The position numbers and the translations under genes are program-made. Shown one piece after another: positions 24,847-46,594 of a DNA stretch of 64,000 nucleotides; within the stretch, counting starts at the first letter, position 1; each line of letters starts with the position of its first letter. Origin of the DNA: Agrobacterium fabrum str. C58 (lineage in GTDB: Bacteria > Pseudomonadota > Alphaproteobacteria > Rhizobiales > Rhizobiaceae); NCBI RefSeq assembly GCF_000092025.1, contig NC_003063.2, positions 248,001-312,000 on the forward strand, in the 5' to 3' direction. The notes beneath the pieces are model-generated. The model did not search any database and was not told the origin of the DNA. It worked only from the letters and a program-made list of their open reading frames with translations.

Positions 24847-24860
24847 GGCAAACATCATCG

Positions 24861-24882
24861 CCCGCGCGGTTCGCCGTGCGGG
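24861..24882 (+). terminator. UUCG-loop hairpin after dctM
   Basis: CCCGCGCGG, TTCG, CCGTGCGGG: nine pairs (one G-U) closed by a very stable UUCG tetraloop. It lies in the 75-base gap between dctM and the dehydrogenase gene. It may attenuate transcription or protect the upstream mRNA. Confidence 0.5.
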
Positions 24883-24921
24883 TTCATTCCTTCCACACAC
24901 AGACTATATGAGGGCATCGTC

Positions 24922-25968: not shown

Positions 25969-25984
25969 TATTTGAGGATCAAAG

Positions 25985-27193: not shown

Positions 27194-27206
27194 GCGGGAA
27201 AATTGA

Positions 27207-27231
27207 CCGCAGGCGATGCGTCAGCCTGCGG
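27207..27231. terminator. Terminator-like hairpin after uxuA
   Basis: CCGCAGGC, nine-base loop, GCCTGCGG lies right after uxuA and overlaps the stop of the convergent VanZ-like gene. Perfect eight-pair stem, no strong T-run. Confidence 0.5.
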
Positions 27232-27574: not shown

Positions 27575-27817
27575 GGCGTAACAATAGAGTGCCACCCGCG
27601 CAAACGGAAGCACGTCTTTTTCACGCCTCGCCCAATTAATCACACTTTTTGGTCAGATAGTTCAAAAACCGGCTTTCGCTCAGGCCCCACACGGGCTAAG
27701 GCAGAAGGCAACCGGACGAGGATCGTGGCTGATGGCCTTGGCGCTGTCGCCTTTCGATGCGATGTCACGGTATCGGTGGATTTTCCACACAGGATCAGAT
27801 TTTCAGGGAAGAGCACA

Positions 27818-29329
27818 ATGAGTTTCAAGCCGCATGGCAAACATCTGGTTGCAGGAGAATGGGTCGCAACGGAAGCAAAATTCCGCAGTGAGCCTGCACA
27901 TGGCGAAGCTTTCGATTTTTCGGTCGGCACCGTCGATCTGGTGAATGCGGCCGCAGAAGCAGCCGAAGAGGCCTTCTGGAGCTACGGCTATACCACCCGC
28001 GAAGAGCGCGCCGCATTCCTCGACACCATCGCCGATGAAATCGAAGCCCGCGCCGACGCCATCACCGAAATCGGCTCGTCCGAGACCGGCCTGCCCGCCG
28101 GACGCCTGCAGGGCGAACGTGGCCGCACCGTTGGTCAGCTACACCTTTTCGCATCGCATATCCGCAAGGGCGATTATCTCGACCGCCGCCACGACGAAGC
28201 CCTGCCGGATCGCCAGCCGCTGCCGCGCCCGGATATCCGCCTGATGCAGCGTCCGATCGGCCCCGTCGCCGTCTTCGGCGCTTCCAACTTCCCGCTCGCC
28301 TTCTCCACGGCCGGTGGTGATACCGCCGCTGCTCTGGCTGCCGGCTGCCCCGTCGTCGTCAAGGGCCATTCCGCCCATCCCGGCACCGGTGAAATCGTTG
28401 CCGAAGCCGTGCTTGCTGCCGTCAAGAAGCACAATCTGCATCCCGGCGTCTTCTCGCTGATCCAGGGCGGTCGCCGCGATGTCGGTTCCGCACTCGTGCA
28501 GCATCCACGCATCAAGGCGGTCGGTTTCACCGGCTCGCTCGCCGGCGGTCGCGCACTGTTCGATCTCTGCGCCCAACGCCCCGAGCCGATCCCGTTCTTC
28601 GGCGAACTCGGTTCCGTCAACCCGATGTTCCTGCTGCCGGAAGCAGTTGCCGCCCGTGGTGAAGCCATCGCCAAGGGTTGGGCCGGTTCGCTCACCATGG
28701 GTGCGGGCCAGTTCTGCACCAATCCCGGCATCGCCGTCATTCTCTCCGAGCAGGCGGATGCCGTGGCTGAAACCGCCCGCGCAGCACTTTCCGAAGTCGG
28801 CCCGCAGGTCATGCTGACGGACGGCATCGCCGCCGCCTATCGTGACGGTCGCGACCGTATCGCTGCCGGCAACGGCGTGCGCGACGTGCTGACGACCACC
28901 TGCAATCTGCGCAATGCAACGCCTTATCTCTACCGTGTTGCCGGCAAGGACTGGGTTGCCAACCACGCGCTTGCTGAAGAAGTCTTCGGACCACTCGGCC
29001 TGATCGTGACTGTTGATAGCGCGGAAGAAATGCTTGAAGTCGCCAAGAGCTTCGAAGGCCAGCTGACGGCGACCATGCATCTGGATGCCGGCGACGCGGA
29101 ACTCGGCCGCAAGCTGCTGCCGATCCTGGAGCGCAAGGCCGGCCGCGTTCTTGCCAACGGTTTCCCGACCGGCGTGGAAGTGTCCGAAGCCATGGTTCAC
29201 GGCGGCCCCTACCCGGCCTCGACGAACTTCGGCGCAACCTCTGTCGGCACCATGTCGATCCGCCGCTTCATGCGCCCGGTTTCCTACCAGAACATCCCTT
29301 CGGACGTTCTGCCCGAAGACATCCGCTAA
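27818..29329 (+). CDS. Alpha-ketoglutarate semialdehyde dehydrogenase
   Basis: A 503-residue aldehyde dehydrogenase of the 2,5-dioxovalerate (ketoglutarate semialdehyde) type, the last step of oxidative pentose, uronate and glucarate breakdown. The catalytic Glu is at 263 (FFGELGSVNP) and the catalytic Cys at 300 (GAGQFCTNPG). The N-terminal MSFKPHGKHLVAGEW and PVVVKGHSAHPGTGEIV match this subgroup. The start at 27818 has AGGGAAGAG upstream. A terminator follows its stop. The gene is a monocistronic unit between two TRAP loci; it could serve hexarate products of either. Confidence 0.85.
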   Translation: MSFKPHGKHLVAGEWVATEAKFRSEPAHGEAFDFSVGTVDLVNAAAEAAEEAFWSYGYTTREERAAFLDTIADEIEARADAITEIGSSETGLPAGRLQGERGRTVGQLHLFASHIRKGDYLDRRHDEALPDRQPLPRPDIRLMQRPIGPVAVFGASNFPLAFSTAGGDTAAALAAGCPVVVKGHSAHPGTGEIVAEAVLAAVKKHNLHPGVFSLIQGGRRDVGSALVQHPRIKAVGFTGSLAGGRALFDLCAQRPEPIPFFGELGSVNPMFLLPEAVAARGEAIAKGWAGSLTMGAGQFCTNPGIAVILSEQADAVAETARAALSEVGPQVMLTDGIAAAYRDGRDRIAAGNGVRDVLTTTCNLRNATPYLYRVAGKDWVANHALAEEVFGPLGLIVTVDSAEEMLEVAKSFEGQLTATMHLDAGDAELGRKLLPILERKAGRVLANGFPTGVEVSEAMVHGGPYPASTNFGATSVGTMSIRRFMRPVSYQNIPSDVLPEDIR

Positions 29330-29333
29330 AACA

Positions 29334-29363
29334 AAAGGGAAGGCGCAAAAGCGCCTTCCCTTT
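29334..29363. terminator. Strong bidirectional Rho-independent terminator
   Basis: AAAGGGAAGGCGC, AAAA loop, GCGCCTTCCCTTT: a perfect 13-pair stem with A-rich 5' and T-rich 3' ends between the convergent semialdehyde dehydrogenase and dctP genes. Confidence 0.9.
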
Positions 29364-29382
29364 CACGTCCGATGCGGCTGAC

Positions 29383-30381
29383 TCAGATAGACTGGATCGC
29401 TTCGATCTTTTCGAGACCGCCGACAATTCCGGCAAAATCCTGCCAGACGCCCTGCGCGCCCTTGCGCCATTCATCCAGCATTTCCGGCTGCAGCACCTTG
29501 CCACCCTTCGAGAGCGCGAGGTCGACGGACTTTACTTCATCTTCCACGATCAACTGGTTGAAATAACGGGCACCTTCGCTGGAGGCTTCCAAGAAGACCT
29601 TCTTTTCCTCATCGTCCAGCTGGTTCCAGAAGGCTGCACCGTAATAAACAACGCCCGTGGCCCAGATATGGCCGGTCTCGGTCAGATAAGGCACGACCTC
29701 GTAAAGCTTGAAACCGGCATAGGCCGATTTGGTGAGGTCCATGGCGTCGGCCACCCCGGTCGCCAGCGCATTATAGGTTTCGGTGATCGGAATGCCGACC
29801 GGTGTCATGCCGAAGGCGCTCCACAATTTGGTGTGCAGCGGGCTCTGAATGACGCGGATTTTCTTGCCCTTCAACTGTTCCGGCCGGGTCACAGGCTCCT
29901 TGGCCAGAAGATGACGTGCGCCGTAATTGATGAAATCGGCGGCGACGAATTGCTGTGCGGCAAGCTTTGTCTTCAGTTCTTCGCCGGTCTCACCCGTCAC
30001 CACCTTGCGCACATGTTCACTATCTCGAAACAAGAAGGGCAGATCGAGGATCTGCAGTTCCGGCACCCAGCCGGACAGGGAAGAGACGGTGGAGAGGCTC
30101 GCCTGAACCGATCCGAGGCGGATGTTTTCTGCCACCTCCTTTTCGCCGCCCAGGGCCCCGCTCTTGACGATGTTGAAGTGGAAACGGCCGGGCAATTTCG
30201 CCTCCACCAGCTCGCTGATCTTCACCCAGATCTTCGTCTCGGGCTTGTCGTCGGCAAATAGCGATGCGACCGTGAGGCGGCGGGTCCTGGCCTGCGCCGG
30301 GCGCATCAGGGCCGGTGCGGCAAGCGTCGCGGCACCGAGAGCGGAGAGTTTGAGGAGATGACGGCGATCGATAATGGTCAT
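29383..30381 (-). CDS. TRAP transporter substrate-binding protein (DctP), second system
   Basis: A 332-residue DctP-type protein. The start at 30381 gives an N-terminus with a twin-arginine-like signal (DRRHLLKLSALGAATLAAPAL, cleavage after AQA near residue 32); a longer upstream frame would bury it. The ligand-binding arginine region is LKGKKIRVIQSPLHTKLWSAFGM, followed by TETYNALATGVADAMD. It follows the fused DctQM gene by 16 bases. It belongs to a different subgroup from the protein at 21828. Ligand unknown. Confidence 0.87.
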   Translation of the reverse strand: MTIIDRRHLLKLSALGAATLAAPALMRPAQARTRRLTVASLFADDKPETKIWVKISELVEAKLPGRFHFNIVKSGALGGEKEVAENIRLGSVQASLSTVSSLSGWVPELQILDLPFLFRDSEHVRKVVTGETGEELKTKLAAQQFVAADFINYGARHLLAKEPVTRPEQLKGKKIRVIQSPLHTKLWSAFGMTPVGIPITETYNALATGVADAMDLTKSAYAGFKLYEVVPYLTETGHIWATGVVYYGAAFWNQLDDEEKKVFLEASSEGARYFNQLIVEDEVKSVDLALSKGGKVLQPEMLDEWRKGAQGVWQDFAGIVGGLEKIEAIQSI

Positions 30382-30397
30382 GACAAAAACCTCTGAC

Positions 30398-32218
30398 TTA
30401 AAACAATATGGCCCATAGGCATAAAATGGCGAGGGCAACGAGCAGCGAGACGAGATAGGGAATGACCGCCCGGAAAAGTGCTGCCGCCGGAACACGGGTC
30501 ACGCCGCTGACCACGAAAATGAGCATGCCGAGCGGCGGTGTCAGGCCGTGGATCATCAGATTAACCACCAGAATGACACCGAAATGAATGGGATCGATGC
30601 CGGCCGCCACGGCGGCGGGCAGCAGGATGGGCCCGAAGAGCAGGATCGCCGCGCCGATATCCAGCACCAGACCGACCGCGAGCAGGATGAGATTGGAGAG
30701 CAGCAATACGGTGATCTTGCTGCCGCCAAGCACAGTGACAAAATCCGTGACGAGGCCGGAGACATTGTCCACTGCCAGCAGAAAGGCGAAAGGACCGGCG
30801 GTGCCGATCAGAAGACCAATTGCTGCCGCCTCCCCAGCCGATTGCCGGAAGGTCGCGAAAATGCGGCCCACGCCCAGCCGGTAACCGAAGCCAAGGAGCA
30901 GCGTATAGAGCGCCGCAAGGGCCGCCGCTTCCGTGGTTGTGACGATGCCGATACGGATGCCAACCACCACGATGACGCCGAGGCCGAAGGCCGGTATGGC
31001 CGCGATGGCCGAGCGCCATCGCTCTGCCCCGGTGGCGCGTGGCAGGGTATCGACGCTGCGCACGCTCAAATGGATCGCCACGCCGAGGCAGACCGCCATC
31101 AGCCCACCGGCGAAAAAGCCGCCGACCAGCAGCGAGCCCACCGAAAGATTGGTGGCCGTGGCGAGGATCAGGAAAGCGATGGACGGCGGAATGACATTGT
31201 CGAGCACGGATGTCGCGGCAATAATCGCGCCCGCCTGCGCCGGCGGATAGCCGTGTTTGACGAGTTCCGGCTGAAAGGTGGACGCGCCGAAGGCGGCGTT
31301 GGCGACCGATGAACCGGACGCGCCGGAAAACAGCACGCTGGTCAAAAGCGTCGTCTGCGCCAGACCCGCCCGGCGGTGGCCGACCACGGAAGCGGCGAAA
31401 CGGACGAGCTGGTTGGCGACACCCGATATTGTCAGCAGGCTTCCGGCCAGCAGGAAGAAGGGGATGGCGAGCAGCAGGAATTTCGACATGCCCGTTACGG
31501 TCGAGGAAACGATCGCCGGCTCGGGCAAGGTGCTGCCAAAGGCAATCGCCACATAAGCGGCAGCAAGAAAAGCGTGAGCGAGCGGTGCCGCCAGAACCAG
31601 TCCCACCGCCGCCGTCAGCGCCAGAAACAGGCTGGGCGGCAGGGTCGTATCAACGAATATTTGCGGCAGTCCGACATAGGCCACAAGTGCGATGGTCATG
31701 GACAGCAGAACGGCGAATGTCTTGCCTTCGCTGAAACGCTGAAGCGTCAGATAGACAAAGATAAGCGCGCCGCCTGCGCCAAGAAAACCGAAACGCACCC
31801 ATTCCGGCAGGCCGAGCGTCGGCGAAGTACCACCCAGCATCGCCGCGATCTCCACCCCACCCAAAGCGAGGATGAGCGCCGCAACAAAGGAGAAGGCATC
31901 GGCGAGAATTTCAGTGGCGGCATGAAACCGCGGCGGCAGGAAGCGCACGAAGACATCAAGCCGCATCGCCAATGCGCTTTTGAGGCTGAGCGGTGCGCCA
32001 ACGGCGATCATCGCCACATTGAGCCATATGCCTAGATCTTCCGCGCCGATGAAGCCGGTGTGGAACAGATATCGCAGGGTGACATTGATCAGCACCACCA
32101 AGAGAAGGGCCGCAAGGATCAACGCGGCCACCGCGCCGAGCACGGCATCGAAGCGCGACAGCATCACCGCTGCCGCCGTCTCGAAGCCTTTGCGCCTCTG
32201 CTTTTCCGCTACCGCCAT
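30398..32218 (-). CDS. TRAP transporter fused permease (DctQM)
   Basis: A 606-residue fusion of the small and large TRAP permeases. The DctQ part (residues 20-170) shows FIGAEDLGIWLNVAMIAVG. The DctM part (from about 190) shows FLLLAIPFFLLAGSLLTISGV, LFSGASGSSVANAAFGAS and NLMIHGLTPPLGMLIFVVSG. The start at 32218 is preceded by GGAAGGCGG; an ATG at 32248 is less well supported. Together with the DctP gene at 29383 it forms a complete importer. It lies 100 bases after an ABC ATPase gene in the same direction, so partial co-transcription with that cluster is possible. Confidence 0.9.
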   Translation of the reverse strand: MAVAEKQRRKGFETAAAVMLSRFDAVLGAVAALILAALLLVVLINVTLRYLFHTGFIGAEDLGIWLNVAMIAVGAPLSLKSALAMRLDVFVRFLPPRFHAATEILADAFSFVAALILALGGVEIAAMLGGTSPTLGLPEWVRFGFLGAGGALIFVYLTLQRFSEGKTFAVLLSMTIALVAYVGLPQIFVDTTLPPSLFLALTAAVGLVLAAPLAHAFLAAAYVAIAFGSTLPEPAIVSSTVTGMSKFLLLAIPFFLLAGSLLTISGVANQLVRFAASVVGHRRAGLAQTTLLTSVLFSGASGSSVANAAFGASTFQPELVKHGYPPAQAGAIIAATSVLDNVIPPSIAFLILATATNLSVGSLLVGGFFAGGLMAVCLGVAIHLSVRSVDTLPRATGAERWRSAIAAIPAFGLGVIVVVGIRIGIVTTTEAAALAALYTLLLGFGYRLGVGRIFATFRQSAGEAAAIGLLIGTAGPFAFLLAVDNVSGLVTDFVTVLGGSKITVLLLSNLILLAVGLVLDIGAAILLFGPILLPAAVAAGIDPIHFGVILVVNLMIHGLTPPLGMLIFVVSGVTRVPAAALFRAVIPYLVSLLVALAILCLWAILF

Positions 32219-32318
32219 GATCCGCCTTCCGCGCGTGATCGGTGTCACGCGGCCAGAAGCGGTATAGAAGAATGTTCCCCGGTGTAAAGCGCCGCGCTCC
32301 GGGAAAACGGGGCAGCAG

Positions 32319-34154
32319 TCAGAGCGCCACGAGGTGGCCGGGTGAAACCTCGCGATACGCCCGCGGATTGGCTGTGTAATCCACCGGACGGATCGGGCTT
32401 TTCAGCTCATCATTCGCCGCACCACGCCGCGTATTCCGGCGGTCCGGGTCCGGCACCGGCACTGCGGCCATCAACTTGCGGGTGTAATCATGCTGCGGAT
32501 TGTCGAAGACATCAGCGCGCGGGCCGATTTCGACGATCTCGCCGAGATACATCACCGCCACGCGATGGCTCACGCGTTCCACCACCGCCATGTCATGGGA
32601 AATGAACAGGAAGGCGAGATCAAGGCTCTGCTGCAGATCCAGCATCAGGTTGATGACCTGCGCCTTGATCGACACGTCAAGCGCCGACACGCTTTCATCG
32701 GCAACGATGACCTTCGGCTGCAATGCCAGCGCGCGGGCAATGCAGATGCGCTGACGCTGGCCGCCGGAAAATTCGTGCGGGTAACGCGCCGCCATATCAG
32801 GGGAGAGGCCGACCTTGTTCAGCATGTCGGCGACCACCTCCTTCGCCTCGCGAGCGCTGCCCATGCGATGCTCCAGAAAAGGTTCGGCAATCGCAGCCCC
32901 CACCGTCATACGCGGATTGAGCGAGGCGAAAGGATCCTGAAAGATCATCTGCACCGTCTTGCGCATCTCGCGCATGCCTGATTTGTCGAGGGTAAGAATA
33001 TTCTCGCCATTGACCACCACAGAACCGGCATCCGGCTCGATCAGCCGCATGATGGCGCGACCGGTGGTGGACTTGCCGCAGCCACTTTCACCGACCAATG
33101 ACAATGTTTCGCCGGCCCTGAGATCGAACGACACATTCTCCACCGCATGGACCCGGCCGCTGAGCCGTCCCAACAGGCCGGAGTGAATGTCGAAACGCTT
33201 GGTCAGCCCCTCCACCTTCAGCACCGGCTGGGCGCTGGCATCGACGGTATCGGCCGGACGAACCGGTTCCTGCGTTTCCCCCGTCGCGGTGTTGACGATG
33301 GGGAAGCGGAGCGGCCTTTCTTCACCCTTCATCGACCCCAGAACCGGAACTGCGGACAGAAGCGCACGGGTATAGGGGTGTTTGCCGCGATGGAAGATAT
33401 CGGCCGTCGCGCCGACCTCCACCTGCTCGCCGCGATACATGACGACGGTGCGGTCGGCGATTTCGGCCACCACGCCCATATCATGGGTGATGAACAGGAC
33501 GGAGGTGCCCTCCTCTTCCTGAAGCGTCTTGATAAGGTCGAGAATCTGGCCCTGGATCGTGACGTCAAGTGCAGTCGTCGGTTCGTCTGCGATCAACAAC
33601 TTTGGTTTTGAGGCAAGCGCCATGGCGATCATCACGCGTTGGCGCATGCCACCGGAAAAGCGGTGCGGATATTCATCGAAACGGGACGCAGCGGAAGGGA
33701 TTCGTACCTTTTCAAGAAGGCGGACCGTCTCCGCTCTTGCCTCTGCTTTCGACATTGGCTGGTGGCAGAGCAGAGCTTCGGAAATCTGGTCACCGATGGT
33801 GAACAGCGGATTGAGGCTGGTCATCGGCTCCTGAAAGATCATGGCGACCTCGTTACCCCTGACCCGCCGCATGGCGTCTTCGGAAAGGGACAGCAGGTTG
33901 CGACCGCCGAGCAAGATCTCACCCTGAACCCTGCTGCTTTCCCGATCCAGCAGCCGCATGATGGAGAGCGACGTCACGCTCTTGCCCGAACCGCTTTCAC
34001 CGACGATCGCGACGGTCTCGCCCGGCCCGACATCGAAGGAAATATCACGCACCACCGGTTTCCAGCCGCCATCCACGTGAAAGGACGTGGTGAGATTGCG
34101 GACGGAAAGCACGGCATCTTCGGCACCAAGCGGTGCTGCCTGCGGCATGGTCAT
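32319..34154 (-). CDS. Dual-domain peptide-type ABC transporter ATPase
   Basis: A 611-residue protein made of fused DppD- and DppF-like ATPases. Walker A motifs are at 52-59 (GESGSGKS) and 355-362 (GESGCGKS). Each half has FSGGMRQRV or FSGGQRQRI signatures and Walker B (LLIADEPTTALD; VIVADESVSALD). The oligopeptide C-terminal extensions (around MYLGEIVEIGPR) are present. No permease gene adjoins it; the matching DppB, DppC and binding-protein genes lie at 38142-41814 beyond the IclR and amidohydrolase genes, and I infer they form one transporter. It follows the SelA-like gene by 55 bases. Confidence 0.88.
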   Translation of the reverse strand: MTMPQAAPLGAEDAVLSVRNLTTSFHVDGGWKPVVRDISFDVGPGETVAIVGESGSGKSVTSLSIMRLLDRESSRVQGEILLGGRNLLSLSEDAMRRVRGNEVAMIFQEPMTSLNPLFTIGDQISEALLCHQPMSKAEARAETVRLLEKVRIPSAASRFDEYPHRFSGGMRQRVMIAMALASKPKLLIADEPTTALDVTIQGQILDLIKTLQEEEGTSVLFITHDMGVVAEIADRTVVMYRGEQVEVGATADIFHRGKHPYTRALLSAVPVLGSMKGEERPLRFPIVNTATGETQEPVRPADTVDASAQPVLKVEGLTKRFDIHSGLLGRLSGRVHAVENVSFDLRAGETLSLVGESGCGKSTTGRAIMRLIEPDAGSVVVNGENILTLDKSGMREMRKTVQMIFQDPFASLNPRMTVGAAIAEPFLEHRMGSAREAKEVVADMLNKVGLSPDMAARYPHEFSGGQRQRICIARALALQPKVIVADESVSALDVSIKAQVINLMLDLQQSLDLAFLFISHDMAVVERVSHRVAVMYLGEIVEIGPRADVFDNPQHDYTRKLMAAVPVPDPDRRNTRRGAANDELKSPIRPVDYTANPRAYREVSPGHLVAL

Positions 34155-34209
34155 GATCGTTCCCTTCTCTTTATTGTCGTTGCAATGCTCGCGGCACCCG
34201 CTCGCTTAC

Positions 34210-35406
34210 TCAGTCCGGCCAGCACAGCATGCCGTCGAAGCGGTGGCGGCTGCGGTCTTCGAACGGTGTCGCAATCATCTCGTTGGAGGCGCGTGCCTTG
34301 TCCAGCTCCTCGGCCAGCCGGGAAGCCACGATGGTTTCCTGACCGGGATGCAGGTTGCAGGGGTCGAGATAGAAATAGCGATGCTCGACCTCGTGATCGC
34401 GGGTGATGATCGGCGGATTGCCTCTGGCCAGCGCCGTCGTCAGGTCCCAGGCGGTGATATGCGCTTCGTCGGCATCGATGATGACACGCATGCGGTCGAG
34501 CGGATTGTTGGTCGGGTCGGGCTCGATCAGCGCCGTCACGCCCGGGCGTCCGTCCAGCGTCTTTTTCCAGAGATTGAGATAGCCGGTTTCGCGCTCGCGA
34601 ATGCCGGCATGGTCGCGTTTTTCCCAGGCTTCCAGCGCCGCCATCACGCCATAGATGCTTTCCTTGCCGACCTTCATGCCGCGGCCGATGCCCATGTTCT
34701 GCAGAAAGGCATGCCGCACCAGTTCCTTGCTTCCGGCGACGATGCCGGACGTGGGGCCGCCAAGGAACTTGTGGCCGGAATAGAGCACCACATCCGCGCC
34801 CGTCGCCAGAAACAACTCCAGATCATATTCGGAGGCCGCATCGACGATGACAGGCACGCCCTTCGCATGGGCGATTTCGACGAATTCGGACAGATGCAGC
34901 AACCCATAATCGACCACATGATGCGAGACCACATAGACCGCTGCCGCGGTTTTTTCAGTGATGGCGTTTTCCATGTGGTAGCGATGGGTTGATGTCGCCT
35001 GCCCGACCAGCACCACCTTGCCACCGCCGAGCCGGATCGCCTGATCCACCGGCGCGCCGTAGCTCACCACATGGCCCATCTGGACCAGAACCTCGTTCTT
35101 TTCAGGCGCGATATCGGGCAATTTTTCGATGGCGAGCAGATTATTGCCGGTAATCGCACCCGCCACAGCAAGGCTGATGCCGGACGAGCAGGACGCCGTG
35201 ACGAAGCCGGCCTCGCCGCCCGTCAGCCTCGCGATGATCGCGCTCGCCTTGCGCTGCAGATCGTTGATCTCCACGAATTGCGGAAGGATCGCCGCCATGG
35301 CCTCGACCGCCTCGGGGACGACGATGGAAGCACCGAGCGACGTCATTGTGCCCGAGACGTTGATGACCGGGCGAAGGCCGATCCTGCTTCTGATATCCTC
35401 GGTCAT
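34210..35406 (-). CDS. SelA-like PLP-dependent enzyme (possible ammonia-lyase)
   Basis: A 398-residue fold-type I PLP protein related to selenocysteine synthase SelA and to DgaE-type ammonia-lyases. The PLP-binding lysine is Lys213 ([14 protein letters not shown]), with the preceding Asp in [13 protein letters not shown]. It lacks the long N-terminal tRNA-binding region of SelA, and no selB or tRNA-Sec is nearby, so a role in selenocysteine synthesis is unlikely. The start at 35406 has AGGAGAAA upstream. It is divergent from the IclR gene and followed by the ATPase gene. In other bacteria such proteins occur beside cog3964 amidohydrolases, as here. Substrate unknown. Confidence 0.8.
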
Positions 35407-35442
35407 GTCTTTCTCCTGTCTTTGCGATGCGATGGGCATCGA

Positions 35443-35461
35443 CATATATGCCATAATAATG
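35443..35461. promoter_or_regulatory. Shared CATTATTATG motif upstream of the SelA-like gene
   Basis: The minus strand reads CATTATTATGGCATATATG. Its first ten bases are identical to the element at 41852-41871 upstream of the Dpp-type binding-protein gene, and the remainder is similar (ATATA core). It lies between the divergent SelA-like and IclR genes and is a candidate IclR operator. Confidence 0.5.
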
Positions 35462-35480
35462 TAATAGCTTCTCAAAATGC

Positions 35481-36332
35481 ATGAGGAGCCGGAATTTGGA
35501 CGCCCATCGACTGGACGAAATAGCTTCAACCGCCCTTTCCGACACAGCGGAAAACCCGGACGTGAAGGCGGCCAAGCGCTCGCGCGTCAGCGGCATCGAC
35601 CGTGCGCTGCAGGTGATTGACTACCTTTACGAAACCGGATCGCCAGCCGGCGCTTACGCGATTGCCAAGGCCATCAAGGCGCCGCTTTCCACCGTCTATG
35701 TGATCGTCGACGATCTCGTCGAGAAGACCATGCTGGCGCGCAACGCCGACGGCAACATCTGGCTTGGCGCACGGCTTTACCACTATGGCCTCGCCTATGC
35801 GCGCTCGCTGGATTTCATGGGTGTCGCCACCCATGAAATGCATGATCTGTGCCGCCATGCCGGCGAAACCGTGCAGCTTTGCGGACGCGATGGTGATCAT
35901 ATGCTTGTGCTGGCGATGGCCGATGGACCCAGCCACTTTCAGGTTGCGTCCCGCGTCGGCACCCGTGTTCCGCTGAACTGGACGGCATCCGGCCGCCTGC
36001 TCGTCGGTCATCTGCCGGAAACCGAACGCCTCGAACTTTTCAGGCGTTGCGCCCGCTCCTCGCCCACGGGCCGTGCGGAAATCAATCCCGAGACCCTGTC
36101 GCAATCGGCGGCGGCCGCTTTTCATGACCGCCTGTCGATACAGGTCGCCGAATCCGATTACGCCGTCGCCTGCATCGCCTCGCCGATCTGCGACATCAAC
36201 GGTGAATGCGTCGCGACGATTTCCATCGTGCTGCCGGAACAGAAGGTGCTGGCGGACGAAAACCACTATACCGAACAGGTCAGGGTCTCGGCGGAACGGA
36301 TCGAAAAGCTGATGGGCTGGCGCAACCATTAA
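35481..36332 (+). CDS. IclR family transcriptional regulator
   Basis: A 283-residue regulator. The helix-turn-helix is at about residues 37-95 ([39 protein letters not shown]) and the C-terminal ligand domain carries [15 protein letters not shown] and the typical [21 protein letters not shown]. The ATG at 35481 has no ribosome site; a TTG at 35496 lies after GAGGAGCCGG and may be the true start (278 residues). It is embedded in the split Dpp/amidohydrolase/SelA-like cluster, read against its neighbours, and is likely its regulator. Its end nearly meets the end of the RidA-like gene. Confidence 0.87.
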
Positions 36333-36338
36333 ATAGCC

Positions 36339-36833
36339 TCAACCCTTCAGCGCGACGATGGCTTCGATTTCAACGGTAATGTTGCCCGGCAGCGAGCCAA
36401 AACCCACGGCGGAGCGGGCATGCTGCCCCGCATCGCCGAACACGTCGATGAACAGATCGGAGCAGCCGTTGATGACGCTCGGATGATCGCGGAAATCGCT
36501 GACGGCATTGACCATGCCGAGCAGCTTGACCACCTTCTTCACCCGCGACAGGTCCCCCAGCGCCTCATGCATGACAGCAAGCAGGTTGATGCCGGTGAGG
36601 CGCGCATGATTATAGGCCTCTTCCAGCCCGATTTCCGCGCCAACCTTGCCGGCGTAAAGATGGCCGTTTTCTTCCCGCGGCCCCTGCCCCGAAAGATAGA
36701 GCATGTTGCCTTCCACCACATGGGTGACGAAATTGGCAATCGGCGGCGGCGGCGGCGGCAGAGAGATGCCGAGCGCAGCGAGCCGGTCATAGGGCGAAAG
36801 GTGCCCTTCAGCATCAAGCAAAGACTGTTTCAC
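36339..36833 (-). CDS. RidA-like enamine/imine deaminase family protein
   Basis: A 164-residue RidA/YjgF family protein. The conserved arginine that binds the carboxylate is Arg140 in HARSAVGFGSLPGNITVEIEAIV-type context (seen as ARSAVGFGSLP then VEIEAIV). It is longer than typical RidA (about 128 residues) because of an N-terminal extension with a run of seven prolines. The start is GTG at 36833 with GAGGAATT upstream. RidA proteins hydrolyse reactive enamines released by PLP enzymes to keto acids. Its neighbours, a SelA-like PLP enzyme and an amidohydrolase, fit such a role. It follows the amidohydrolase gene after 83 bases holding two hairpins. Confidence 0.85.
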   Translation of the reverse strand: MKQSLLDAEGHLSPYDRLAALGISLPPPPPPIANFVTHVVEGNMLYLSGQGPREENGHLYAGKVGAEIGLEEAYNHARLTGINLLAVMHEALGDLSRVKKVVKLLGMVNAVSDFRDHPSVINGCSDLFIDVFGDAGQHARSAVGFGSLPGNITVEIEAIVALKG

Positions 36834-36851
36834 GCGAATTCCTCATAATGC

Positions 36852-36903
36852 CGGGATGGGTATCCCGCCTTGTCTGCGGAAGGCGCAGGGCAGACCCTGC
36901 GCC
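36852..36903 (-). other. Two adjacent hairpins between amidohydrolase and ridA-like genes
   Basis: CGGGAT-GGGT-ATCCCG (36852-36867) and GGCGCAGGG-CAGA-CCCTGCGCC (36882-36903). Both stems are perfect. They lie in the leader of the RidA-like gene within the leftward operon and could attenuate transcription or protect the upstream mRNA. No T-run follows in the leftward direction. Confidence 0.55.
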
Positions 36904-36916
36904 ATTCCAGTCGGGT

Positions 36917-38140
36917 TCAGCGCCAGGAATAACCATGGCTATGGCGCACCAACTTGCGCGCCCTTGGAATGTAACGGCTGGCGGCTATGGCTTCCGCACC
37001 GATGACCGCGTAACGCGGCTCGAACAGGCGCTTCAGACGCGACACGTCACCATTGGAATCCGTGGCTTCCAGATCGGCATCGACAAGATCGAAAACCGTA
37101 AAATCCGCCCGCTGGCCGACATCGAGGCGGTTTTCCATGTCAAGGCGGATGACGGAGGCCGGATTGCGGGTGACTGCCTCGACGACGTTTTCGAAAGGCA
37201 TATCAACCGACAGCAGCTTCGACATGGTCGTCGCCAGGTCCCAGACCGGGAAATTCATCGAATGGCCGTGCAAATCCGTCGAGATCGAGAACGGCAACAG
37301 GCCGCGCGCAATCGCCGCCTCCGCCACCTTGAAGGAGAAGGATGCGCCGCCATGGCCGATATCCAGCCGGATGCCTTCACCCGCGCAGCGTTCGGCAAGG
37401 TTGAACAGGTCCTCGTCTTCCATGATGCTGGAGCCCGACTTGCCGTTGAAGCAATGGGTCACGACATCCCCGGGACCGAGGATTTCCAGCACCTCGTCAT
37501 AAAGTGCGGGCGGTTCGCCCACATGCACCATCATCGGCACTTTGAGGATCTTGGCGATCTTCTTGCCGAGCTTCACCGGCGTCACACCCCAGGAACCGGT
37601 GATGACATGGCTCGCCCGCACCTTCAGGCCGACAATATGTTCGCTGTTTTCGGCGTAACATTCGAGGATACGATCGAGGTCGATATCCTTGATGTCGCGC
37701 AGTTCCGGCACGCGGTTGCAGGCGACGAGGCCGATGGAACCGAGATTGAGGAAAGCCTTGATGCGCTCTCTCGAAGGTTCGATGATATATTCGCGGAAAC
37801 CATGGAAATTCGCCTCCCCCGCCGAGCCGGCATCCACCAGCGTCGTGACGCCGCGTTCCGCCCCGCATTCGGAGGGGCGGATGGAAATATCGGTGCCGCC
37901 ATGCCAGATATGCACATGCAGATCGACCCAGCCGGGTGAAATGAAGGCGCCTTTGGCATCAATGCGCTGCGTATCCGCAGGCGCCTGCAGGGCAGAACCT
38001 ACCGCGGCGATCTTGCCGTCGCCGCCGATCAGAATATCGGTCGAGGATTGGGACGCCCCCTTTCCGAAACCGACAGGTTTGACATTGGTGAGAAGAATGG
38101 GAGCTTGAAGAGGCGTTTTTGCCTGTTCACCTGATGTCAT
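36917..38140 (-). CDS. Amidohydrolase superfamily metallohydrolase (cog3964)
   Basis: A 407-residue binuclear metal hydrolase. Metal ligands can be placed at His75 and His77 (DLHVHIWHGG), carboxylated Lys173 (GLKVRASHV), His206 (MVHVGEPP), His229 (VTHCFNG) and Asp289 (STDLHG). Proteins of this group were long annotated as dihydroorotase or adenine deaminase. I recall that an Agrobacterium cog3964 enzyme, likely this one, was shown to hydrolyse acetyl-(R)-mandelate-type esters. The natural substrate is unknown. The start at 38140 follows AAGGGA; the gene begins one base after dppC ends. Its operon partners suggest it deacylates an imported N- or O-acyl compound. Confidence 0.85.
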   Translation of the reverse strand: MTSGEQAKTPLQAPILLTNVKPVGFGKGASQSSTDILIGGDGKIAAVGSALQAPADTQRIDAKGAFISPGWVDLHVHIWHGGTDISIRPSECGAERGVTTLVDAGSAGEANFHGFREYIIEPSRERIKAFLNLGSIGLVACNRVPELRDIKDIDLDRILECYAENSEHIVGLKVRASHVITGSWGVTPVKLGKKIAKILKVPMMVHVGEPPALYDEVLEILGPGDVVTHCFNGKSGSSIMEDEDLFNLAERCAGEGIRLDIGHGGASFSFKVAEAAIARGLLPFSISTDLHGHSMNFPVWDLATTMSKLLSVDMPFENVVEAVTRNPASVIRLDMENRLDVGQRADFTVFDLVDADLEATDSNGDVSRLKRLFEPRYAVIGAEAIAASRYIPRARKLVRHSHGYSWR

Positions 38141-38141
38141 C

Positions 38142-39017
38142 TTACAAATCCCTTCGCAGTCTTGGGTCGAGCATGTCCCGCAGCCCGTCGCCGACCATTT
38201 GCAGCGACAGCACGGAAAGAATGATGGCAAAGCCGGGGAAATAGGTCATCCAGTCAGCCTGACCGATATATTGGCGACCAGCGGAGATCATGGTTCCCCA
38301 GGTTGGAATTTCAGGGCTGACACCGAGCCCCAGAAACGACAGGCCGGCCTCGGCCAGCATGGCACTGGCGAAAAGGAAGGTGCATTGCACGAGGATCGGC
38401 GAGACCAGATTGCGCAGGACATGCCGCGTCATGATGTGGAAGGTGGAGATGCCGAGCGCCCTGGCCGCTTCCACATAGGGCAACTCACGAATCACCAGTG
38501 TCGAGGCGCGCACGATGCGGGCAAGGCGAGGCGAATAAACCACGGCGAGCGCGATGATGACAGTCGTCAGCGACGGACCGAGTGCCGCCACCAGCGCGAT
38601 GGCCAGCAGAATATCCGGAAAGGCCATCATTGCGTCGATCAGGCGGGCAATCGGCGTATCCAGCTTCTGGAAGAAACCGGCGAGCAGGCCGAGCGTGATG
38701 CCGATAATGGACGATAGCGCCACAACGGCGGCCCCCACGAGAAGCGACAGTCTGCCGGCATAGATGGTGCGGGAAAACACGTCGCGACCGAATTCGTCGG
38801 TGCCGAACCAGTAGAGTTCGCTCGGCGGCTTCAGGCGGTTGACGATCGACAGTTTCGACGGCGAGTAAGGCGCAATCATCGGCGCGAAAACGGCAAGCAG
38901 CACGAAGACGAGCAGCACGATAAGACCAGCGGCGACAGTCCTGCGTTTCAGGAGACGCCGAATGAACAGGATGGTCGGGTTGCGCGTCGGAGGGGCGGTG
39001 GAGGTGATATCGGCCAT
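38142..39017 (-). CDS. Peptide-type ABC transporter permease (DppC)
   Basis: A 291-residue inner-membrane permease with six helices. The N-terminal OppC domain (RRLLKRRTVAAGLIVLLVFV) is followed by FGTDEFGRDVFSRTIYAGR and the EAA loop YVEAARALGISTFHIMTRHVL. The C-terminal LGLGVSPEIPTWGTMISAGR is diagnostic of DppC/OppC. Its ATG overlaps the dppB stop by one base. It works with DppB and, by inference, the fused ATPase at 32319-34154. Confidence 0.92.
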   Translation of the reverse strand: MADITSTAPPTRNPTILFIRRLLKRRTVAAGLIVLLVFVLLAVFAPMIAPYSPSKLSIVNRLKPPSELYWFGTDEFGRDVFSRTIYAGRLSLLVGAAVVALSSIIGITLGLLAGFFQKLDTPIARLIDAMMAFPDILLAIALVAALGPSLTTVIIALAVVYSPRLARIVRASTLVIRELPYVEAARALGISTFHIMTRHVLRNLVSPILVQCTFLFASAMLAEAGLSFLGLGVSPEIPTWGTMISAGRQYIGQADWMTYFPGFAIILSVLSLQMVGDGLRDMLDPRLRRDL

Positions 39018-39958
39018 CAGTAACGAACCCTCGGATCGACCAGCAAATAAAGCATGTCGATTGCAAAATTGATGAGGACGTAAAGCCCGGCGATGACGAG
39101 AAGCGCGCCCTGAATGACCGGATAATCACGCCGGAGCACGGCGGACACGACGAGATTGCCGACACCCGGCAGGCCGAAGACGGTCTCCGTGACGACCGCG
39201 CCGGAAATCAGCACGGCGGCGGTGAGGCCAAGCACGGTGAGGATGGGGATGAGCGCATTTTTGAGCGCATGTTTCATCACCACGCGGCGCTCTTTGACGC
39301 CCTTGGCTCTGGCGGTGCGAACATAGTCGTCACCCAGAACATCCAGCATCGAGGCGCGGGTGAAGCGTAGAATGAGGGCGGAAGAAACGAGGCCGAGCGC
39401 AATCGCCGGAAGGGTCAGGTGATACATGCGCTCAAGGAAGCTCGCACCGGGCCCGCCATAACCCGACACCGGGAACAGATCGAGCCGCACGGCGAAGAAC
39501 TGCATGAGAATGAGGCCGAGCCAGAAGCTCGGAATGCTCGCTGCCAGCATCGCGATGGTGGTCGCGGCCTGGTCCACGAAGGAACCGCGACGGTAAGCAG
39601 CATAGATACCGATGGGGAGCGCGATGACACCGGCAATCAGCAGCGAAAAAATCGTCAGGAAGAAGGTCGGTTCCGCCCGGTCGAGAAGCGCCGAGCCGAC
39701 CGGCATGTTAAGAAAGATCGACTGGCCGAGATCACCCTTCAGCAATTGGCCGATATAATAGACATATTGCACCCCGAGCGACTGGTCGAGACCAAGCCGG
39801 GTGCGAAGCTCGGCAATATCCTGCGCCGTGGCATCCGGCCCCAGCATCACGGCGGCCGGATCACCGGGGGTGACGCGCAGGATAACGAAAACGATGGTGA
39901 CGACGAGGAACATCACCACGATCATTCCCGCAAGTCTTTGGAAAATATAGCGTATCAC
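39017..39958 (-). CDS. Peptide-type ABC transporter permease (DppB)
   Basis: A 313-residue permease with the classic N-terminus MIRYIFQRLAGMIVVMFLVVT, TPGDPAAVMLGPDATAQDIAELRTRLGLDQ, the EAA-type loop DVLGDDYVRTARAKGVKERRVVMKHALKNA and the end TVFGLPGVGNLVVSAVLRRDYPVIQ. It is separated from the upstream binding-protein gene by 329 bases containing a mosaic repeat, but is directly coupled to dppC downstream. Confidence 0.92.
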   Translation of the reverse strand: MIRYIFQRLAGMIVVMFLVVTIVFVILRVTPGDPAAVMLGPDATAQDIAELRTRLGLDQSLGVQYVYYIGQLLKGDLGQSIFLNMPVGSALLDRAEPTFFLTIFSLLIAGVIALPIGIYAAYRRGSFVDQAATTIAMLAASIPSFWLGLILMQFFAVRLDLFPVSGYGGPGASFLERMYHLTLPAIALGLVSSALILRFTRASMLDVLGDDYVRTARAKGVKERRVVMKHALKNALIPILTVLGLTAAVLISGAVVTETVFGLPGVGNLVVSAVLRRDYPVIQGALLVIAGLYVLINFAIDMLYLLVDPRVRY

Positions 39959-40287
39959 GTATGAAAGCTCCGAAGCGCGTGATTGCCGCGACCAGGCGAC
40001 GGTTGAACCGAGTTCTCGAGGGTGCCGGCAATTCCGGCACTCGCAGTAGTAAAATCGAACGTTCTCTTCGCACGTCCTCCTTATACCCCACCCTCATTCC
40101 TGTGCTTGTCACAGGAATCTAGCCAGCCCCAAGTCCTTGGGCTGAAAGGACTCCTCTCGCCGTGCAGACGCGCGTCGGCTGGATTCCCGTGACAAGCACA
40201 GGAATGAGGGCGGAGGCGAAGCGGGCTCACAGGTCCGGCATGAAAGAGCGCCGGATGCAAAGCCCGGCGCCCGATTGCCAACCAGTC
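39959..40287 (-). other. Intergenic gap between binding-protein and permease genes
   Basis: 329 bases in an otherwise compact operon. It holds a mosaic-type inverted repeat (40091-40210) and a separate hairpin GTGCCGG-CAATT-CCGGCAC (40022-40040). Nothing coding was recognised. The structures probably separate high expression of the binding protein from low expression of the permeases. Confidence 0.5.
40091..40210. repeat. RIME-like intergenic mosaic element
   Basis: A 120-base element. Its 34-base ends (40091-40124 and 40177-40210) are inverted copies differing at two positions, starting CCCTCATTCCTGTGCTTGTC and ending with its complement. Inside lies a second palindrome CCAAGTCCTTGG and the pair AGTCC/GGACT. 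Size and double-palindrome design match rhizobial intergenic mosaic elements (RIME type). It does not code for anything. Confidence 0.75.
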
Positions 40288-41814
40288 TTATTTCGTGACC
40301 GAAGCATTCCAGAAATAAGGCCAGGGAGCCGGATCGACGCCTTCCAGCTTGTTGGATTTAGCCGCCGCGGCGTTGAAGTCGCCGATCTTGATGAGCGGCA
40401 GCTCGGCATAGATCGTTTTTTGCACATTGGCCCACAGCGCAAGGCGCTTTTCCGGATCGGCTTCCGACGTGAAGGCGTCAACTGCCGCCTTGCGTGCCGG
40501 CGTATCCCACCAGCCCGGCGAGCTGGTGGACAGCGCTCCCATCAGCGCCGGTTCCGGCAGGAAGGGGCTGTGGCTGATATAAATGTCCCAGAGCTTCGGA
40601 TCGGCGCGGCGCTGCGTCAGCGTTGCCCAGTCCACCACCTGCATATCCACCTTGAAGCCGGCAAGCTTCAGATATTCCGCCGCCACCTGCGCCATTTTGT
40701 AATGGAACTCGTATTGGCGGCTGGTGAGGATGCGCAACGGCTCGCCATTATAACCGGCAGCCTTCAGCTTTTCGGCTGCTGCCTCCGGGTTGCCGACATT
40801 ATAATTGCCGTCGACGCCCTCTTCCGTGTGCCAGGAGAAATTGTCGGGATAATAGGCGCCGTCAAGGGCGTAGAAATCGGTGCTGCCGAAAGCGGCGGCC
40901 AGCATGTCCTCCATGTTCAGCGCTTCGGTTACGGCCTTGCGAACCTCAAGCTTGGAAGCAAGCCCCTCCTTGGTGTTGAACACGAAGACCGGGAAACCGA
41001 ATGGCTTCAGCATCATGGGCTGCGAGGCTGACGAGGACTTCACCTTTTCGAAGGACTCCACCGGAATGGAATCGACGTAATCATATTGACCTGAGACGGC
41101 CGCCTCGACGCGGGTATTGGGATCGGGCACCGGAACGAAGCGGATTTCGTCGAGATATTGATGGCGCGCACCACCATAACCGTCGCTTTCGCCATCACGG
41201 GACTTGTAGCCATCAAAACGCACGAGCTGGATATATTGGTCCGCCTTGCGTTCCTTCAGCATATAGGGGCCGGTGCCGACAAATTCGGCCATCGGCTCCG
41301 CCTGCTTTTCAGCCGGCAGGATGATGGCTGCCGAATTGTTGAAAGCCAGCAGCGAGGTCAGCGGCGCATAGGGCTGCTTAAGGGTAATCGTCACCGTTCC
41401 GGCATCGGGTGCAGAAATATTGTCGATAAAACCGGCGGCCTGCTTGCCGCGCGATGCGATCTTCATCCACCGGCCGAGCGAGGCGACGACGTCTTCCGAG
41501 GTCATGTCGCTGCCGTCATGGAACTTGATGCCCTGGCGCAGCTTGATGGTGTAGGTTTTGCCATCCGCACTGATCTCAGGCAGGCTTTCGGCCAGAAGAG
41601 GCGTCACCTTCCAGCCCTTGTCGAAGGTGTAGAGCGTCTCGAAAATATGCTGCGTGACGATGCCGACCAGATCGGCGGTCGAGGCCATCGGGTCGAGTGT
41701 CGGCGGCTCGCCGATCGTCGCGACGTTGATGACGCCGCCCTTCTCCGCAGCCGTCATCACACCCGGCGCCAGCAACAGCGCGGCGGTGGCGAGAAATGCA
41801 ATTTTACGTCTCAT
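40288..41814 (-). CDS. Peptide-type ABC transporter binding protein (DppA, SBP family 5)
   Basis: A 508-residue periplasmic protein of SBP family 5. Signal peptide at residues 1-23 (RRKIAFLATAALLLAPGVMTAA). Family signatures are EPPTLDPMASTADLVGIVTQHIFETLY, KTYTIKLRQGIKFHDGSDMTSEDV and RKAVTEALNMEDM. The start at 41814 is preceded by GGGAG; an upstream ATG at 41841 is less likely. It is the first gene of the leftward cluster with DppB, DppC, the amidohydrolase and the RidA-like protein. Family-5 proteins bind peptides but also glycosides, opines and other solutes, so the ligand is open. Confidence 0.9.
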   Translation of the reverse strand: MRRKIAFLATAALLLAPGVMTAAEKGGVINVATIGEPPTLDPMASTADLVGIVTQHIFETLYTFDKGWKVTPLLAESLPEISADGKTYTIKLRQGIKFHDGSDMTSEDVVASLGRWMKIASRGKQAAGFIDNISAPDAGTVTITLKQPYAPLTSLLAFNNSAAIILPAEKQAEPMAEFVGTGPYMLKERKADQYIQLVRFDGYKSRDGESDGYGGARHQYLDEIRFVPVPDPNTRVEAAVSGQYDYVDSIPVESFEKVKSSSASQPMMLKPFGFPVFVFNTKEGLASKLEVRKAVTEALNMEDMLAAAFGSTDFYALDGAYYPDNFSWHTEEGVDGNYNVGNPEAAAEKLKAAGYNGEPLRILTSRQYEFHYKMAQVAAEYLKLAGFKVDMQVVDWATLTQRRADPKLWDIYISHSPFLPEPALMGALSTSSPGWWDTPARKAAVDAFTSEADPEKRLALWANVQKTIYAELPLIKIGDFNAAAAKSNKLEGVDPAPWPYFWNASVTK

Positions 41815-41851
41815 GGTCAAGCTCCCAGCTCTTTGTTCCAACTCGATGTTC

Positions 41852-41871
41852 CATTATTATGTTATATACAT
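41852..41871. promoter_or_regulatory. Shared CATTATTATG motif upstream of the Dpp-type operon
   Basis: Reads CATTATTATGTTATATACAT on the plus strand, matching the site at 35443-35461 over its first ten bases and an ATATA core. It lies 10-30 bases downstream of the predicted -10 box (41881-41886), that is, over the transcription start, as expected for a repressor site. Confidence 0.5.
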
Positions 41872-41880
41872 CTTTATAAC

Positions 41881-41908
41881 AGAATATCTCGATAAGATGC
41901 CTTGTCAA
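41881..41908 (-). promoter_or_regulatory. Promoter of the Dpp-type binding-protein operon
   Basis: On the minus strand TTGACA (41908-41903), 16-base spacer, TATTCT (41886-41881). The start codon is at 41814, giving a leader of about 60 bases that contains the shared motif. Confidence 0.5.
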
Positions 41909-45316: not shown

Positions 45317-46594
45317 ATGAAACGTTTCTGGACCGCCCTTAGCGTTCTTGCCATTGCAGCCGCCGGTACCTGGTATTTTAGGGATCGCCTGCCGCTCGAT
45401 CAAATTCCCTATCTCAAACAATTTTCCAGCGCGTCTCCGCAGCCCGGCGCCGAAACTGCAGCGCAATCCTCCCAAAACGGCCAGCCGGCCCGGCAGTCGG
45501 GACAAAGACAGGGCGGCGGACGTCGCAATGGCGCGCCGCCCACGGTCAGCACCATCGCCGTCGCCAAGGCGACGCTGCCGATGGATGCAACGGCGACGGG
45601 ATGGGCAGTTGCGGCCGATATCACCAATATCGCCCCGCTTCAGGCCGGTCTCGTCACGGAAATTAGCGCGAAGGACGGCCAGCATATCAAGGCGGGCGAT
45701 CTGATCCTCAAGTTGGATGACCGCATCGCCCGTGCCGCCGTCGACAAGGACAAGGCCAATATCGCCGCCGACCAGGCGACGCTGGAGCAGACCGAGGCCG
45801 CCTTCCAGCGTGCCACCAATCTGGTCAAGCAGAGCGCGGAATCGCAACAGGTACTGGATCAGGCCAGGGCAGCGCGCGACGGCGCCAGCGCCAAGATCGA
45901 TGCCGACAAGGCAACGCTCGCCTCAGATCAGGTGACGCTCGAACATATGGAAATCCGTGCCCCATTCGACGGGCGGCTCGGCGATATCACCGTCAGCCCC
46001 GGCGCCTACCTCAGTGCCGGCGTCAATATCGTGACGATTACCAAATATGATCCGATCTCGGTCAGTTTCCGGCTTTCCCAGCGCTACCTGCCGCAATTGC
46101 GTGAAGGCGTGACAAAAGAAACCGCCGTTGATGTCGATCCGGCGGCGACGGGGGGCGAGCCCATGCGCGGCGTCCTGCGTTTTTACGACAATGCGGTGGA
46201 CCAGACCTCGGGCACCGTGCTGGCAAAAGCGGAGTTCAAGAATGACCGCGGTCTTTTGTGGCCCGGCCAGTCAGTGAACGTCACCGCCCACTTCGTCTCG
46301 GACGATGAAATGATCGTGGTGCCGACTGTCGCCGTGCGGCCCGGGCCGAAGGGCAATTTCGTCTATACGGTCGATAGCGAACACCATGCCCATATGACAT
46401 CGGTGGAAGTTGCCCGCTCGAATGGCGACCTCACCGCCATAACAAGCGGCCTCAATGGCGGCGAACATATCATCGTTGAAGGTCAGTCCGAACTTGCCGA
46501 TGGCCAGACGGTGGTCGAGCAATTTTCCGACAAGGGCGGTGCGGCTGCCAATGTGGCCGCCAATATTCCGCAGGAACAGGTTGGCGGCCAATGA
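45317..46594 (+). CDS. RND efflux periplasmic adaptor (membrane fusion protein)
   Basis: A 425-residue HlyD/AcrA-type adaptor. An N-terminal membrane anchor (residues 1-18, FWTALSVLAIAAAGTWYF) is followed by a Gln/Gly/Arg-rich linker (about 40-65). The lipoyl half-motifs (ITNIAPLQAGLVTEISAKDGQHIKAGDLILKLDD) flank a coiled-coil hairpin rich in Ala, Asp and Gln, and beta-barrel domains come last. It lacks a lipobox. The ATG at 45317 has only a weak ribosome site (GGAA). It overlaps the pump gene by four bases (ATGA). No outer-membrane partner gene is present, so a shared TolC is likely. Confidence 0.9.
   Translation: MKRFWTALSVLAIAAAGTWYFRDRLPLDQIPYLKQFSSASPQPGAETAAQSSQNGQPARQSGQRQGGGRRNGAPPTVSTIAVAKATLPMDATATGWAVAADITNIAPLQAGLVTEISAKDGQHIKAGDLILKLDDRIARAAVDKDKANIAADQATLEQTEAAFQRATNLVKQSAESQQVLDQARAARDGASAKIDADKATLASDQVTLEHMEIRAPFDGRLGDITVSPGAYLSAGVNIVTITKYDPISVSFRLSQRYLPQLREGVTKETAVDVDPAATGGEPMRGVLRFYDNAVDQTSGTVLAKAEFKNDRGLLWPGQSVNVTAHFVSDDEMIVVPTVAVRPGPKGNFVYTVDSEHHAHMTSVEVARSNGDLTAITSGLNGGEHIIVEGQSELADGQTVVEQFSDKGGAAANVAANIPQEQVGGQ

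Follow-up and report, generated by a model that had tools for sequence, protein, structure and literature searches.

The described systems nearest to the eight-gene unit considered here, which spans positions 32319-41814 of a 64-kb stretch (the window) of the Agrobacterium fabrum C58 genome and encodes a Dpp-type importer, a cog3964 amidohydrolase (AmdH), a Rid-family protein, a SelA-like pyridoxal phosphate (PLP) enzyme, and an IclR-family regulator, are the ong cluster, the dga pathway, and a group of haloarchaeal chitin clusters. In the ong cluster, OngB deacetylates N-acetyl-D-glucosaminate and OngC deaminates the product as well as D-serine and D-threonine, while the Rid protein OngD was described as needed for growth in an unknown role (PMC9537276). 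The dga pathway handles D-glucosaminate via a phosphotransferase system (PTS), DgaE, and DgaF (PMC9529869). In the haloarchaeal clusters, a DgaE homologue stands with RutC, IclR, glucose dehydrogenase, and CE14, and a D-glucosaminate route was proposed (PMC12343721).

The Agrobacterium unit shares with the Pseudoalteromonas ong (GlcNAc1A) cluster an amidohydrolase-superfamily deacetylase, a PLP deaminase, a Rid protein, and a regulator, which in ong is a repressor (PMC9537276, PMC12017989). The enzymes themselves, however, differ: OngB is of the D-aminoacylase type and OngC of fold type III, whereas the unit has the cog3964 and SelA-like types, and ong further holds a hexosaminidase, KdgK, and SSS- and TonB-type transporters where the unit has a Dpp importer (PMC9537276). 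Neither a D-aminoacylase-type OngB, a fold type III OngC, KdgK, nor a hexosaminidase was found among the eight genes. The closest known logic is thus far that of the oxidative-chitin pathway of ong, carried out with different enzymes. With the dga pathway the unit has in common the SelA-like PLP ammonia-lyase type, and a cog3964 gene stands beside DgaE in several loci; in contrast to dga, the unit is without a PTS and a DgaF aldolase, has Rid and IclR genes, and carries a SelA-like protein that lies outside the DgaE clade with Cys for the third phosphate arginine (PMC9529869). The haloarchaeal clusters likewise combine SelA-like, Rid-family, and IclR proteins but draw their deacetylase from another family (PMC12343721). 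Because the related Haladaptatus SelA-like protein (35% identity) falls outside the clade of the window protein, it was rejected as direct support. No published description of the unit was found in the open-licence literature, a body that leaves out most subscription journals, and most of the papers found were judged from their listing.

Conservation and regulation of the unit

The eight genes form one dedicated, separately regulated unit, which on balance probably constitutes one catabolic regulon for an acylated amino compound, with reactions that would run in the order of import, deacylation, elimination, and Rid hydrolysis. Every part was located as listed in Table 1, in agreement with a preliminary description of the window that had placed importer, amidohydrolase, SelA-like, Rid, and IclR genes together, and whose residue positions for AmdH (His75, His77, Lys173, His206, His229, and Asp289) and for Lys213 of the SelA-like protein were also correct. 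All genes lie on the minus strand except that of the IclR protein, which is placed on the plus strand between the Rid and SelA-like genes.

Conservation was assessed in 80 named loci, the best 80 of 92 relatives, in which neighbour genes were assigned as homology-labelled open reading frames (ORFs). The genes for the solute-binding protein (SBP), DppB, DppC, Rid, and the SelA-like enzyme occurred together in 80/80 loci, and the ATPase, AmdH, and IclR genes in 78, 55, and 50 of them, respectively. Although the closest named loci were mostly from Agrobacterium (SelA-like protein 96-97% identical), whole units were also present in Phyllobacterium (74%), Sagittula (53%), L084 (66%), L094 (52%), and the Ensifer locus L173, as well as in L201. 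The preliminary description had named a lack of co-occurrence outside close relatives as an outcome that would speak against it; the comparison, once run, gave co-occurrence in Phyllobacterium, Sagittula, Ensifer, and others. Genes beyond the eight, in contrast, varied between loci, as seen in the 18 of the 80 that were read gene by gene.

All 25 loci without AmdH were also without IclR, and AmdH was present elsewhere, at 85-87% identity, in each of the 11 genomes of this group that were tested. Five more loci were without IclR alone, and all five of their genomes carried it elsewhere (84-85% identity). On pRL11 of R. johnstonii, about 33 kb separate AmdH from the genes of the importer; it adjoins IclR there, with a rhamnose isomerase gene close by. 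In Phyllobacterium the intact unit itself adjoins rhamnose genes. The simplest history would be that of a single unit that was split later.

An operator-like motif common to the two transcription units, with one copy ahead of the SBP gene and another in the SelA-like/IclR intergenic region, ties them together. Its information content was 22.4 bits over 76 loci, versus 8.0-8.7 bits in five shuffles, and when up to two mismatches were allowed, the whole 5.67-Mb genome (four contigs) held two matches, both in the unit, versus none for a reversed control. When a weight matrix was trained with 21 of the loci, its best site in each locus stretch (11-21 kb) fell at one of the two promoters, SBP or SelA/IclR, in 78 of the 80 loci, namely 21/21 in training and 57/59 among the others; the two exceptions were L055, where the gene start had been called too early, and L058, which has a second binding-protein gene. 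Scored sites also precede the displaced AmdH and IclR genes in all of the four split genomes examined. A 14-base pattern, itself built partly from the very sites in the split genomes, gave 10 matches in four of these (6.3-7.8 Mb) versus two for the control, and its three matches in R. johnstonii stand before AmdH, IclR, and SBP. We infer that the IclR protein binds this motif; it would act at both promoters and sense the compound or its product. The promoter-like matches were weak at both promoters of the unit, that of the SBP gene because 0.8 were expected in shuffles against the one found.

If AmdH and the SelA-like enzyme acted on different substrates and merely shared a locus, the separation of AmdH from the operon in 25 of the 80 loci, and the occurrence of both families with other partners, would find an easy place. 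The displaced genes, however, are retained in every genome tested, and with the same motif, and we regard so loose an assembly as very improbable.

Because the importer did not reach the NCBIfam equivalog cut-offs (GsiA, 838 versus 1077 bits; DppB, 255 versus 590 bits), it was assigned to a general Gsi/Dpp type only; the top PDB sequence matches of its SBP were 8VDX (137 bits) and AgaA 6HLX (125 bits). The genes at 22-32 kb for TRAP transporter, aldehyde dehydrogenase, and mannonate dehydratase were rejected as unit members, since gene content outside the eight varies across the 18 of 80 loci that were read. They belong to a sugar-acid neighbourhood specific to some relatives, which adjoins the unit at 21852-32248; mannonate dehydratase UxuA scored 525 bits there, and an idonate-dehydrogenase-like gene and genes for two TRAP transporters and an aldehyde dehydrogenase are also present.

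Table 1. Genes and sequence elements of the unit, in positions of the window
Feature	Position	Strand	Remarks
Promoter-like TTGACA-16-TATTCT	41881..41908	-	upstream of SBP motif; weak
Operator-like motif, 22 bp, ATATAACATAATAATGGAACAT	41846..41867	-	before SBP gene
Family 5 SBP	40288..41814	-	508 aa, signal peptide-like start; PF00496 249 bits
DppB-type permease	39017..39958	-	PF00528, PF19300
DppC-type permease	38142..39017	-	PF00528, PF12911
AmdH, cog3964 amidohydrolase	36917..38140	-	407 aa; NF006689 459 bits (cut-off 371)
Rid-family protein	36339..36833	-	PF14588 82 bits (cut-off 35)
IclR-family regulator	35562..36332	+	ORF open from ATG 35481; PF01614 (IclR_C) 93 bits (cut-off 24), PF09339 (HTH_IclR) 25 bits (cut-off 22)
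Operator-like motif, form ATATGCCATAATAATGTAATAG	35446..35467	+	between SelA-like and IclR genes
SelA-like PLP enzyme	34210..35406	-	398 aa, Lys213; PF03841 50 bits
Fused two-domain ATP-binding cassette (ABC) ATPase of importer	32319..34154	-	two PF00005 and two PF08352 stretches

The three enzymes

Cog3964 amidohydrolases are a family with deacylase activity. AmdH was identical to PDB 2OGJ in 406 of 408 aligned residues, both differences being the first two residues of the construct; it retains the cog3964 metal ligand residues and counts as a member of the 2OGJ group. Being practically identical to this entry, which we take to be Atu3266 of Agrobacterium C58, AmdH is not an undescribed protein. 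Where a possible undescribed pathway had been suggested, the conserved unit was confirmed, but its amidohydrolase had already been solved. The deacetylase study of Atu3266 (2OGJ) by Ornelas et al. 2013 reportedly gave in vitro substrates and not a pathway, and the structure, for which no physiological role is known to have been reported, would here gain a pathway and a regulon.

The Rid protein is of the PF14588 type and did not reach the cut-off of the RidA subfamily proper (TIGR00004, 35 versus 106.25 bits). Its Arg and Glu, conserved in active Rid members and presumably catalytic there, align with those of 2B33, in keeping with the Rid enzyme assumed from the outset. Elsewhere, in four stretches from which a SelA-like gene is absent (L117, L131, L135, and L138), AmdH and Rid genes occur with a creatininase-like gene adjoining a Dpp importer, with two Rid genes in three of the four genomes and neighbouring ORFs that appeared amidase-like by eye.

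The genome holds one copy of the SelA-like gene, save for two matches at E above 1e-4. A true SelA (selenium transferase) was rejected, as the protein scored 66 bits with TIGR00474 versus a cut-off of 267.9. Among named families it came closest to DgaE, with 310 bits, and with 326 bits for TIGR01437 (cut-off 385), below both cut-offs; in the tree it sits in a 20-row clade with support 99/98, from which three DgaE rows are separate at 100/100. In the DgaE study, phosphate was docked near Arg301, Arg332, and Arg346, and His163 was shown to act as the proton donor (PMC9529869). By alignment, the equivalents in the SelA-like protein are Arg305, Arg336, Cys350, and His163, and it also keeps His162 and the PLP lysine Lys213. 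The third phosphate-arginine position is Cys in 13 of the 14 aligned rows of the window clade and Thr in the other, versus Arg in the three DgaE rows, and this replacement would make a phosphorylated substrate less likely. Position 226, given for DgaE as an Arg docked near the alpha-carboxylate, is Ser in the SelA-like protein; it was dropped as a DgaE discriminator, since the three DgaE rows themselves carry Lys. On the sub-cut-off scores, the separate clade, and the loss of one phosphate arginine, membership of DgaE was rejected, so that the DgaE link suggested earlier holds as a relationship but not as an identity. As to numbering, the study names Lys-217 as the PLP lysine of DgaE (PMC9529869), but in the deposited chain (PDB 7LC0) the lysine located by alignment is residue 213; the other numbers agree.

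More distant SelA-like proteins (about 515 aa) are encoded on Rhizobiaceae plasmids near CDP-alcohol phosphatidyltransferase genes (L174:6869-8509 and L175:6920-8515), that of L175 also near phosphoenolpyruvate mutase, and from these neighbours one SelA-like branch may serve phosphonate biosynthesis. In another locus (L091:6036-14243), the SelA-like gene is flanked by gamma-glutamyltranspeptidase and hydantoinase/oxoprolinase A and B genes.

Partner exchange around cog3964 hydrolases

The partners of AmdH were surveyed in 385 genomes of the class, with cog3964 relatives taken at E up to 1e-30 and SelA-like relatives at E up to 1e-20. The former occurred in 50 of the genomes, at 65 places, the latter in 34, and both in 23. 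Two further PLP families were sought in the 50 AmdH genomes, namely PF14031 (D-serine dehydratase / D-threonine aldolase type) and TIGR01747 (diaminopropionate ammonia-lyase), which we take to be of fold types III and II, SelA being of fold type I. Pairs within 8 kb of AmdH numbered 8 for SelA-like proteins, 9 for PF14031, 4 for TIGR01747, and 13 for PF14588 Rid proteins, versus 0.23, 0.50, 0.18, and 0.46 expected under uniform gene placement, an assumption that ignores kinship and operon clustering, so that the Poisson values are not to be taken literally. At least one of the three PLP families stood within this distance at 19 of the 65 AmdH places, and a PF14588 Rid protein at 10.

Besides the uniform placement assumed in these expectations, three counts from the survey weigh against a linked pathway: at 46 of the 65 AmdH places, no member of the three PLP families stood inside the 8-kb limit, 55 were without a PF14588 Rid protein, and 31 of the 39 SelA-like places in AmdH genomes were unlinked to AmdH. 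A stronger argument than the pair counts is that three unrelated PLP families are swapped at one spot. In L144, the gene order is importer, diaminopropionate-lyase type, AmdH, Rid, and PF14031-like type. Such partner exchange supports a sequence of import, deacylation, PLP elimination, and Rid hydrolysis, and thereby the order of deacylase, PLP lyase, and Rid in the preliminary description, as a general logic; its statement that DgaE occurs near cog3964 hydrolases also proved right, DgaE genes adjoining cog3964 in several loci. If the amino-sugar-acid route set out below is correct, cog3964 enzymes would be N-acyl-D-amino-acid deacylases feeding three unrelated PLP folds. The placing of Rid beside deacylases and unrelated PLP lyases bears on the retention of dedicated Rid proteins.

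One cluster with DgaE, on a Clostridioides difficile plasmid (L179:3745-8903), holds PTS genes, a MupG-family protein, a cog3964 hydrolase, DgaE, KDGP aldolase, and a sugar kinase, which suggests a disaccharide of an N-acyl amino-sugar acid as its substrate. MlrC-type (M81) genes were found with Dpp importer and/or cog3964 genes in L097, L101, and L149, in the first two also with SelA-like and flavin mononucleotide (FMN)-dependent hydroxyacid dehydrogenase genes; these loci perhaps represent a related pathway for a peptide-like substrate.

Candidate substrates and proposed reaction sequence

In the proposed pathway, the Dpp-type importer would take in a D-amino compound that is acylated or conjugated in another way, from which AmdH, in line with the activity of its family, would strip the acyl group in the cytoplasm. 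As judged from DgaE, the SelA-like enzyme, with PLP on Lys213, would then eliminate the beta-hydroxyl of the freed D-alpha-amino acid to yield an enamine/imine, and hydrolysis of the imine by the Rid protein would release ammonia and leave a 2-keto acid.

The transporters of related loci gave clues to the compound. Same-clade SelA-like orthologues occurred with an amino-acid ABC importer in L085, L088, L089, L090, and L200, and with a GntP-type symporter in Paraburkholderia L171 and in L199, and AmdH was absent from the fetched stretch in 7/7 of these, although some of the genomes carry an AmdH relative on other contigs. The Dpp importer, in contrast, was found with a linked AmdH in L084, L092, L094, L109, L110, L173, L201, and L202 as well as in the 55 of the 80 loci. 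From this distribution, a free compound may enter via the amino-acid ABC or GntP system and an acylated compound via Dpp. The GntP match was to the gluconate subfamily (480 bits versus a cut-off of 293), with 318 versus 618 bits for the D-serine transporter DsdX. A lactonase gene lies inside the Dpp-AmdH operon of L086, and lactonase genes lie beside AmdH-DgaE-DgaF in four of seven short loci of one family. In one locus, Pseudorhizobium L058, a further copy of the motif precedes the genes for a second binding protein and, at 550 bits versus a cut-off of 478.5, a GH1 beta-glucosidase. Taken together, the importer swaps, the lactonases, the GH1 enzyme, and the haloarchaeal clusters speak for an amino-aldonic acid ahead of D-serine or D-threonine. 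The likeliest substrate class is an unphosphorylated N-acyl-2-amino-2-deoxy-aldonate, e.g., N-acetyl-D-glucosaminate, and N-acyl-D-serine or -threonine comes second; a clade that resembles DgaE but is distinct from it would thereby be given a substrate class.

We tentatively put forward, as a possibility, an unphosphorylated amino-sugar-acid route of soil bacteria, in which the cog3964 enzyme would deacetylate imported N-acetyl-D-glucosaminate (or a glycoside of it) and a SelA-like D-glucosaminate ammonia-lyase, together with Rid, would deaminate the product to 2-keto-3-deoxygluconate (KDG). Several points count against this reading and against the proposed pathway as a whole. A KDG kinase or aldolase is absent from the eight genes, and the DgaE units in the loci read were without a linked Rid. 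The main contrary evidence concerns the enzyme itself, as 2OGJ is said to act on acetyl-(R)-mandelate at about 10^5 per M per s, versus about 4 for N-acetyl-D-serine.

This reported ester preference of 2OGJ would suit a depsipeptide-like pathway, in which the importer takes in a small ester joining an (R)-alpha-hydroxy acid to an amino acid or another acyl group, AmdH hydrolyses the ester bond, and the amino acid part then loses its nitrogen through the SelA-like enzyme and Rid. The dipeptide-type importer is compatible with this, as are the FMN-dependent 2-hydroxyacid dehydrogenase genes that L097 and L101 carry next to SelA-like and AmdH genes, and the D-2-hydroxyacid dehydrogenase-like genes beside AmdH in L113, L114, and L116. 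No hydroxy-acid dehydrogenase, however, is present in the unit itself, and the free-compound importers (amino-acid ABC and GntP) and the lactonases indicate an amino-aldonic or amino acid; we consider the ester pathway unlikely.

As a sub-case of the import-deacylation-elimination scheme, the unit could instead salvage N-acyl-D-serine or N-acyl-D-threonine, and not a sugar acid. The product, pyruvate or 2-oxobutyrate, would call for no additional dedicated enzyme, in accordance with the lack of a KDG kinase, and the PF14031 and TIGR01747 relatives near AmdH are serine-, threonine-, or diaminopropionate-type enzymes; OngC, too, deaminates D-serine and D-threonine. The lactonases, the GH1 glucosidase, and the gluconate-type GntP match argue otherwise, as does the reportedly very low activity of AmdH on N-acetyl-D-serine, and such a salvage role seems to us rather doubtful.

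Returning to the amino-sugar-acid route, a glucosaminate ammonia-lyase was reportedly once purified from Agrobacterium, and we know of no gene assigned to it; if this route is correct, the SelA-like gene would be a candidate. Likewise, an oxidised amino sugar as the substrate would give rhizobia and agrobacteria a route of their own for oxidative chitin breakdown products.

Outside the unit, an ARAGORN tmRNA-like match at 48632-49008 lies antisense inside a 1046-aa ORF (46591-49731) and is probably a false positive.

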